A stretch of 64,000 bases of DNA from Agromyces bauzanensis (lineage in GTDB: Bacteria > Actinomycetota > Actinomycetes > Actinomycetales > Microbacteriaceae): contig NZ_BMMD01000006.1 in the NCBI RefSeq assembly GCF_014645655.1, positions 88,377-152,376 of the forward strand, read 5' to 3'. This document shows, piece by piece, positions 31,257 through 36,984 of this stretch. The notes under the pieces were generated by a model that made no database searches, was not told the DNA's origin, and saw nothing but the letters and a program-made list of their open reading frames with translations. Positions within the stretch are counted from its first letter, which is position 1; each line of letters starts with the position of its first letter. The translations under genes and the position numbers were made by a program.

Positions 31257-31667
31257 ATGAAACTCACGATCCACCACAGCTTCCTTCCGCACACCGACCC
31301 AGACGCCTCGATCGCGTTCTACCGCGACCTCCTCGGCTTCGAGATCCGCAATGACGTGGGCTACCAGGGCATGCGATGGATCACGGTCGCCCCAACCGGG
31401 CAGCCCGACACCTCGATCGTGCTGCACCCGCCGACCGCACAGCCCGACCTGACCGACGACGAACGCACCACCATCCTCGAGTTGATGGCGAAGGGCAGCT
31501 ACTTCGGCGCCAACCTCGCGACCGACGACGTCGACGACACGTTCGCGAAGCTCGAGGCAGGCGGCGCCGAGGTCGTCCAGGAGCCCACGGATCAGCCCTA
31601 CGGGGTGCGCGACTGCGCGTTCCGCGATCCGTCGGGCAACATGATCCGGATCCAGGAGCGCGCCTGA
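31257..31667 (+). CDS. VOC family protein (glyoxalase/dioxygenase-like)
   Basis: 136 residues forming one vicinal-oxygen-chelate module pair: IHHSFLPHTDPDASIAFYRD, LLGFEIRNDVGYQGMRWITV, ATDDVDDTFAKLEAGGAEVV, CAFRDPSGNMIRIQE. Metal ligands are likely His-3 of the first strand and Glu near the end. TAGCGT at 31245-31250 lies six bases before the ATG, so a separate leaderless transcript from the AraC gene is likely. The AraC-VOC-UvrA-like order suggests a small resistance module. The substrate is unknown. Confidence 0.9.
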   Translation: MKLTIHHSFLPHTDPDASIAFYRDLLGFEIRNDVGYQGMRWITVAPTGQPDTSIVLHPPTAQPDLTDDERTTILELMAKGSYFGANLATDDVDDTFAKLEAGGAEVVQEPTDQPYGVRDCAFRDPSGNMIRIQERA

Positions 31668-31669
31668 GG

Positions 31670-33000
<1,331 letters not shown>

Positions 33001-33141
33001 ATTCTCATGTGTCTGCACCTGGCGTGAGAAATCGGGGGAGCGGGAACCCGCTCCGAGCCCGGAACGCCGGCGGCACTGGTGCTCGTGGGCGTCGCAGCAT
33101 CCGCCGCCGACCTCGCATCCGCCGGGCTCGCGGGCGTCGCA

Positions 33142-34656
33142 TCAGAGGTTCTGCCCGATGTCCCAGAGCCGGTCGGGGCGGCCGTCGATCGCCTCCGACA
33201 CCGCGAGCGCCTGGTCGTCTGAGAGTGAGGCGACGTAGTCGATCACCCCTCGCCCCACCCCGAGCGTGAGCACATCGGATGCCTCGGGGATCAGGATGCC
33301 CTCGGGCCGCGCCGCTCGCAGCCGTGCGTAGCCGTCGGCGGCGATGTCGACGAGCTCCCTCAGCCGCAGCGGAACGCGGTTGCGGTCATAGTCGTCGGTG
33401 ATCCACGCGGCGAGCCCCTTGACGGCTCGCGTCAGCACGCGGCTGAGCCCGCGCTGGTACATCACGATGTCGGCCCGGTCGAGGATGAAGTGGCGGTGCA
33501 CGAACTTCAGGATCTCGACCTCGTGCCAGGCGCGCCGGTCGAGCGTCACGAGCCCCGAGCGGACGACGTCCGCCGGCGCCGGCACGACCGAGGTCTGCAG
33601 GTGGCCGATCCAACGATTCGTGAATGACGAGAGGGCACGCTCCGAGGCGATCGACCCGTCGAACGGCGTTGCGAGGAGGCCGTCGACGAGGTCGTCGGCG
33701 ACGACATCGACCGCTTGCGCGAACGCGTCGTCGTCGGCGATCCACGGGTCGCTGCGCCTGAGCTTGCGACGGAGCCCGTCGAGCGCGGCCCCCGGCGGCG
33801 CCGAGTGCATCGCCAACTCGGCTTCCGGGAGTCGGCCGAGCTCGGCGGCGCCCGAGAGCCAGCCGCGGAACTCGCGCGCGACCGCCCCGTGGCTGAGCAG
33901 TCCCGCCCGATAGAAGTCGTCGACGTCGTGGATCGAGTAGGCGATGTCGTCTGCGATGTCCATGATGGAGCACTCGAGCGACTGCTCCATCGGCGGCAGT
34001 CCGCGCCGAGCGGCGACGAGGTCGTCGGCGTCGAGGTCGTACGCCGAGAACTTCACGACCTCGATTCCGCCGTCGGCCCGCCGGAGCCCGCGGGGGAGTC
34101 CGTCGCCGAGATCCGAGGCGTCGACGAACCGCGTCCACGGGTACTTCGCGACAGCGGTCCGCACCGCCGCGGTGAGGTTCAGCCCGCGCGGCGCGGCCTC
34201 GCACACGTCGAGTGTGGTGATGATCCGGTACGTCTGCGCGTTGCCCTCGAACCCGTCGGCGAGGCCGAGGCTCTCACGAGCGAGACGGTCGAGCACGCGC
34301 TCGCCGATGTGCCCGAATGGCGGGTGCCCGAGGTCGTGGGCACTCGCGGCGGCCTGCACGACGACGGCGTCGCAGCCGTGCTCGAGCGCGAGATCACGCG
34401 CCGGCGACGAGGCATCCGTCAATCCGACCGCGATCGCACGCGAGACTGCGGTGACCTTGATCGAGTGGGTGAGCCGGTTGTGGATGAGCGGTCCTGCGCC
34501 CGGCTGGGCGATCACCTGCGTGACGGCGGAGAGGCGTGAGAAGTAGGGGGAGAAGCGGATGCGCTCGAGGTCGAGCCGGAACTGCGAGTGCTCGCCCGTG
34601 ACCTCCACGCTGCTGCTCGGCTCGGCGACCAGTCGGGTGGCGCGTTCCCGGTTCAT
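33142..34656 (-). CDS. dgt: Deoxyguanosinetriphosphate triphosphohydrolase-like protein
   Basis: 504 residues with the HD-domain metal-site motifs of dNTP triphosphohydrolases: [20 protein letters not shown] (His), [20 protein letters not shown] (HD pair), [14 protein letters not shown] and [20 protein letters not shown] (later Asp). The enzyme hydrolyses dNTPs to deoxynucleosides and triphosphate. GTPase specificity is not provable from sequence. The C-terminal end lies just past the UvrA-like remnant, with about 140 bases of non-coding DNA between them. Confidence 0.92.
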
Positions 34657-35851: not shown

Positions 35852-36278
35852 ATGCCGGCGGACCTCATCTGGCGATCCGCCGTACTCCGCCAAGCCGAGT
35901 CCGGCGTCCGCCTGGCGCTCCGGGCCGACGCGGCATTGCTCGCCGTGCTCGTGATGATCGGCGTACTGGATGTCGCGCCGGACGGGTTCGTGCTGTTCCG
36001 GCTCGTGCACGCGTCGGTGATCGGCGACGTACAACGCATCCCGGAGCCCTCGCTGGGCGTGATGAGCCTGGGTCTCATCGCCTTGCTGGCGTTGTCGGCA
36101 TTGGTGGGTGAACGGCAGCGGGCTTGGGCCGCGCTTGTACTCGCCGTCCCGACCGCCCTGATCCGGCCGAGCCCTTTACGTCCTCAGCGCGAGCGCCGTC
36201 GTCCTGGTGAACCGGCTTCGCACGAAGAGGAATCCTCCGCCGTCGACGAGTTCATGGCGTCGTCGCTCGAGGAGCTGA
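35852..36278 (+). pseudogene. Probable frameshifted small membrane protein
   Basis: From ATG 35852 the frame gives MPADLIWRSAVLRQAESGVR, then hydrophobic stretches ALLAVLVMIGVLDVAP and LGVMSLGLIALLALSALVG, then AWAALVLAVPTALI. At about 36160 the hydrophobic pattern continues in another frame as ALYVLSASAVVLVNRLRTKR and ends at a TGA at 36276-36278. The original frame instead stays open as a non-hydrophobic sequence to 36661. I read this as a three- or four-helix membrane protein with a frameshift. An alternative is a genuine 269-residue protein. Family not recognised. Confidence 0.4.
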
Positions 36279-36984
36279 AGTCGACGGTCGAGCCACGACG
36301 GAGCGCCGGCGAGTCGACGCCCACTGAGCCGTCAGGGTCTGCTCAGCCGGCGCAGAACAAGTTCGGCTCACCCGCCTACGACGTGTCCACCGACATCGCG
36401 ACCATCCCTCGACCGGTCGATGACCACTGCTTCGGAGCGCCGATAATGCACATTATGTCGGATAGAGTTAACTGCCACACTCTCCCGGTCCACCACTGCT
36501 GCCCGTTGCAGCGAACCTGTCATTCTTGCCAACCGACGTGCCAATCCCCGGATTCCGGGGCTTTGAAACCCAGATGTCAACTGGTCGAGCCGCTTCACGG
36601 CGCCTACCCGTGGGCGCGTTCCGTCCCCGCGCTCGCGCCGCAGTCCGAAACGGCGAACTAACCTGTGAGTCCGCTGGGAACGCCTAGACTATTGCGCTGC
36701 AACCCTGATTCGGGATCCTTCTGGCAAGGCTTGGGGCGGGGGTGGCACGTGCGAACAGTACGGAACCTGCTGCCGGCCGCGCGCGCGATATGCCGGACTG
36801 CCGACTCCCCCGAGCCGCGGAACCTGAGCATGCGGGAGTTCGAGACCGCGTCCACTCTGCGGATGGGATGAACACGGGCAGATGCAGGTCTGCGCCGACG
36901 CTCGGAGCGATCTCGGGACCGGGCCGCTCATTCCTGTTTCCTGACTCTGACCACGTCAGATGTATGCCGGAGGTGGCACCGTCG
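36279..36984. other. Gene-free stretch containing a dif-like site
   Basis: No convincing gene on either strand; the open frames have poor coding texture. It holds the dif-like site at 36436-36463 and a CCCCGGA-T-TCCGGGG palindrome at 36546-36560. A TAGACT hexamer at 36687 has no gene after it. Base composition is slightly less G/C-rich and less periodic than the surrounding genes. Confidence 0.5.
36436..36463 (+). other. dif-like XerC/XerD recombination site
   Basis: A 28-base site with the dif layout. The left arm AGCGCCGATAA (11) and six-base centre TGCACA precede the right arm TTATGTCGGAT (11). The ATAA-N6-TTATGT core matches E. coli dif (CATAA-TGTATA-TTATGT), and GCCGATAA resembles actinobacterial dif left arms as I recall them. 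The right-arm outer bases (CGGAT) depart from the usual. It may be the chromosomal dif, or a XerCD-dependent attachment site. Confidence 0.6.

Follow-up and report, generated by a model that had tools for sequence, protein, structure and literature searches.

The window analysed here is a 64,000-base stretch of the Agromyces bauzanensis genome (positions 88377-152376 of the 168,168-base contig C6), taken from a 3.72-Mb draft assembly of 93 contigs that is 99.89% complete. Comparison with ten Agromyces relatives, in which matches of at least 200 bases were considered, indicates that conserved blocks run to about 30.4 kb and restart at about 46.4 kb. The DNA in between is patchy and species-variable: pieces of the 30.8-33.0 kb segment are common to nine of the ten relatives, and pieces of the 40.1-43.8 kb segment to three. 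Within this interval, a UvrA-like frame shows three separate matches to UvrA models, with a score of 253 bits where the cut-off is 730, and is missing segments retained by several Agromyces relatives; it is probably a pseudogene. The frame that follows encodes a 504-aa dGTP triphosphohydrolase, which scores above the TIGR01353 cut-off and looks whole. Because this frame lies in between, the preliminary description, in which pseudogenes (30.4-37.4 kb) flank the site discussed below on both sides, is only partly right: the UvrA-like frame does look decayed, and the triphosphohydrolase frame does not. Further to the right, an open reading frame that spans the site had no Pfam match. The site itself, read directly on the forward strand, is AGCGCCGATAA-TGCACA-TTATGTCGGAT (Table 1).

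Table 1. Features of the window around the predicted dif site; coordinates are those of the window, and the assignment of the left arm to XerC and of the right arm to XerD is our assumption, by analogy with E. coli dif.
Feature	Position	Strand	Basis
UvrA-like frame, probable pseudogene	31376-33238		Profile matches; comparison with relatives
dGTP triphosphohydrolase frame	33142-34656		TIGR01353
Last + oriented CGGGGGAG before dif, towards dif	34091..34098	+	Octamer scan of contig
Open reading frame spanning the site	35852-36661		
Predicted chromosomal dif site, 28 bp, 11-6-11 layout	36436..36463	+	Read directly; single in genome; 37/37 Agromyces
Left arm, expected XerC half-site	36436..36446	+	Layout read; XerC by analogy
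Conserved core CCGATAATGCACATTATGTC	36440..36459	+	Comparison of 37 Agromyces
6-bp central region TGCACA	36447..36452	+	Read directly
Right arm, expected XerD half-site, TTATGT inner bases	36453..36463	+	Layout read; XerD by analogy
First - oriented CGGGGGAG after dif, towards dif	36805..36812	-	Octamer scan of contig

A search of the window for the site at three mismatches returned one match, against 0.00 expected from 100 dinucleotide-preserving shuffles, and the dif-like 11-6-11 site of the preliminary description is thus borne out. The 18 specified bases of the core likewise match once in the entire genome when three mismatches or fewer are allowed, as expected for a dif, which occurs once per chromosome. 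At the same tolerance, neither a second dif-like copy, a better version of which had been named at the outset as something to look for, nor any match to a control pattern read backwards was found in the 3.72-Mb assembly. The dif sequence of Frankia alni as printed in Kono et al. 2011 (PMC3025954) is alike in its 28-bp, 11-6-11 organization, in the identical core (20/20 bases), in 23 of 28 bases overall and in being single copy; the differences from the Agromyces site comprise five outer bases, of which two are on the left side and three on the right, and G is a common base in Agromyces at the first two of the right-arm positions.

With up to two mismatches, the dif pattern was found in 58 of 60 genomes, namely, in all 37 Agromyces (our genome included in both counts) and in 21 of the 23 other genomes of the order; the remaining two, G046 and G051, had no match at this tolerance, and the backwards control pattern matched in none of the 60. 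One such site is present in every one of the 36 other Agromyces genomes; G032 has, in addition, a match with two mismatches on its small contig, and G059 also has an extra match with two mismatches. When 14 of the 37 Agromyces loci were aligned on the core, 19 of the 20 core columns were invariant, with 12/14 identity in the twentieth, and identity dropped to 4-10 of 14 in the columns beyond the 28 bp. Given that the loci were found via the core, this invariance is partly by construction, and a fairer measure of conservation is that, in a search that tolerated two mismatches, the core is identical in 32 of the 37 Agromyces, with a single differing base in the remaining five. Moreover, in all ten relatives compared, the site has the same orientation and the same flanking conserved gene blocks. 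Among named genome contigs, a set from which our genome was possibly left out, a 25-base part of the site is exact in 22 stretches, all from Agromyces or Agrococcus. A wider sample of the phylum, searched with up to two mismatches, yielded matches in 76 of 198 genomes, many of which are doubtful because the control pattern also matched in 10 of the 198; several genomes had two or more degenerate matches, and this search was used solely to pick, from the 76, ten further genomes with long enough flanks.

In the seven closed Agromyces genomes tested, dnaA and the dif match are separated by 0.47-0.53 of the main contig (G025, 0.53; G032, 0.49; G005, 0.51; G019, 0.50; G016, 0.47; G002, 0.51; G010, 0.48), that is, the site lies opposite the origin. 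In our draft, dif is on contig C6 and dnaA on contig C9; the dnaA distances come from the closed relatives, and the evidence from the genome itself is a switch in the orientation of a polar motif. Cumulative GC skew, which the preliminary description proposed to inspect for a turn at the site, does peak in the 34-36 kb bin of the window, but this test is weakly informative because the skew is faint and noisy in both relatives sampled (20 stretches each). Plain GC skew was therefore rejected as a terminus locator in favour of a polar octamer. Among the octamers in 40 stretches from the two relatives, with the sides set by dnaA and dif, CGGGGGAG has the strongest strand bias (101:3). Applied unchanged to contig C6, it occurs in the forward orientation 25 times to the left of the site and never to the right, and in the reverse orientation once to the left and 12 times to the right. 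The switch falls between the two copies listed in Table 1, which bracket dif, and the octamer thus converges on the site, as KOPS and architecture imparting sequences (AIMS) do. The one wrong-side copy, among 13 reverse copies in the contig, is about 107 kb away.

Thus, the proposal in the preliminary description that the replication terminus lies here is supported by the single copy, the presence in 37 of 37 Agromyces, the position opposite dnaA in seven closed relatives and the polarity flip. Judging from sequence evidence (the site, its uniqueness, conservation, position and motif convergence), the 36436-36463 sequence is almost certainly the primary dif of this Agromyces chromosome. It is well supported that this dif is an ordinary one, of the kind already described for the phylum, in a polar-motif landscape that is as expected. 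Such a 28-bp site would fix the replication terminus of the genome, which helps in ordering the contigs.

Binding by XerCD, recombination and the orienting of FtsK by the motif are predictions modelled on the E. coli system. Once replication is complete, FtsK, the septal translocase, would pump the terminus DNA to dif, guided by the G-rich polar GGGGGAG that points at dif from both arms; the gamma domain of FtsK would then activate XerD, and XerC/XerD would recombine the two sister dif copies, converting a chromosome dimer into monomers. We identified candidates for each of these proteins. A XerC-like gene (C8:76244) scores 304 bits to XerC and 257 to XerD, and a XerD-like gene (C26:24657) scores 229 bits to XerD and 182 to XerC; none of these scores reaches the curated cut-off. 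Contig C7 encodes one FtsK, which has both the motor and the gamma domain. In addition, two clusters of three or four adjacent tyrosine-recombinase-like frames are present in the genome (C36:8556-11263 and C55:256-2959), which possibly are recombinase trios of mobile elements.

In this assembly, the xerD gene (C26:24521-25391, minus strand), whose neighbouring frames we interpret as pyrG, a nudix hydrolase, parA and scpA, is missing the part that holds the catalytic H-x-L-R-H motif, and the frame changes there. If the break is real, dimer resolution at dif would be impaired in this strain, and the site could be an inherited dif that is now unused. We consider an unused dif improbable, even though the state of xerD in this assembly speaks for it: up to the break, the gene reads as one uninterrupted frame with 84% identity to the best relative, and the polar motifs around dif are still maintained. 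Furthermore, the break is seen in one draft assembly, and a short GC-rich stretch can be missing from an assembly by error. The gene is intact in all six relatives examined. From the sequence, the break may be either an assembly error or a real loss.

The preliminary description also considered a scar or target of an element using host XerCD; in this case, an IMEX-like integrative element would have left the sequence as a scar or an attachment site, and it would not be the chromosomal dif. The site does sit in species-variable DNA between conserved blocks, and the dif core pattern is matched exactly in 11 IMG/VR contigs. However, the site occupies the same place in ten of ten relatives although the adjoining DNA differs, and the motif polarity flips there. 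Besides, the genome has no second copy within three mismatches, and the site is absent from the repeats listed for 26-47 kb, which cover 20 of the 24 direct families and 25 of the 28 inverted pairs. Because no second site or repeat was found, a Xer-using element near the site is rejected, and the scar reading appears very improbable. Still less probable is that this is a secondary or degenerate dif, with the working dif in an unassembled part of the genome, as the outer bases of the right arm (GGAT, against AAGT in the printed Frankia sequence) and the draft state of the assembly in 93 contigs might suggest, given that the 99.89% complete assembly has no other match, that GG at these right-arm places is the majority in the 14 aligned Agromyces sites (9/14 and 12/14), that the other 36 Agromyces have one such site each (apart from the additional match in G032) and that the polarity switch is located at this site. 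Both the scar and the secondary-site readings are thus largely refuted.

In one of the IMG/VR contigs, L217, 29 bases separate the dif core match from the beginning of the stretch examined, and a phage large terminase gene comes just after the match; phages carrying a site of this type therefore seem to occur. Among the contigs L214-L224, L221 shares the ten bases to the left of the core. Possibly, L214-L224 are phages that use host Xer.

Turning back to the primary dif and its surroundings, we counted GGGGGAG in the 20 kb to either side of dif in 30 genomes, selected because the sequence flanking their dif match was long, and found 465 copies pointing towards the site and two pointing away from it. 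Broken down by group (towards:away), ten Agromyces, drawn from the 36 relatives, contribute 192:0, and ten genomes that represent ten other families of the order contribute 167:0; the remainder comes from five members of family f22 (27:1), from G195 (26:0) and from four genomes that are more distant (53:1). Control 7-mers with a similar composition are less polar in Agromyces (GAGGGGG, 33:13; GGGGAGG, 56:20; GGGAGGG, 42:8; GGGGGAC, 30:4). The E. coli KOPS, GGGNAGGG, was tried as the polar motif and rejected, being much less polar (17:7 in our contig and 38:12 in ten relatives).

We dropped the idea that GGGGGAG is a new motif, as it is already published as a corynebacterial AIMS: in the C. aurimucosum and C. 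resistens genome papers, (T/C)GGGGGAG and G(A/T/C)GGGGGA are the AIMS that locate dif, and Corynebacterium AIMS are credited to Hendrickson and Lawrence 2006 (PMC2830990, PMC3350403). AIMS are defined by an abundance and a strand bias that increase on nearing the terminus (PMC5993296). The motif reported here is alike in being the identical G-rich octamer, biased to the leading strand and used for finding dif. Unlike there, our counts are confined to the vicinity of dif, where the polarity is stricter: 0 of 359 copies within 20 kb point the wrong way in 20 genomes of the order. The published sum for AIMS octamers over the whole C. aurimucosum chromosome is 856:61 (PMC2830990), and the two ratios do not compare like with like.

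The KOPS of E. coli and Vibrio offer the other obvious parallel: GGGGGAG is polar and converges on dif, and an FtsK gamma domain is encoded, whereas the KOPS sequence itself is much less polar in Agromyces. The gamma sequence aligns with solved FtsK gamma domains. In E. coli, N1296, R1300 and E1303 are the residues given as reading KOPS (PMC2533119), and, in our own reading of the alignment, A, R and D occupy these places here. We lean, by a modest margin, towards GGGGGAG being the FtsK-orienting KOPS of Actinomycetota with circular chromosomes, read by a gamma domain whose recognition helix departs from that of E. coli at two of the three base-reading residues (N->A, E->D). A claim to this effect was not found in the literature searched, which mostly excludes subscription papers, and the sole match to a search for CGGGGGAG together with FtsK concerned clostridial disulphide enzymes. 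If this reading is true, the corynebacterial AIMS octamer would be the actinobacterial KOPS proper, only loosely kept in a chromosome that lacks dif. Its near-absolute polarity provides a clean test case for such a role. In practical terms, GGGGGAG polarity brackets dif to a few kilobases in high-GC actinobacteria with faint GC skew.

Finally, we examined G081, a 9.17-Mb genome of a relative from the same class that has no dif match and could, we infer, be a linear Streptomyces-like chromosome. Here, GGGGGAG points outward from dnaA, in a looser fashion (30:16 on the right and 10:42 on the left, counted in 10 stretches per arm). Since the polarity is kept in this genome without a dif match, the motif is not strictly dependent on dif.
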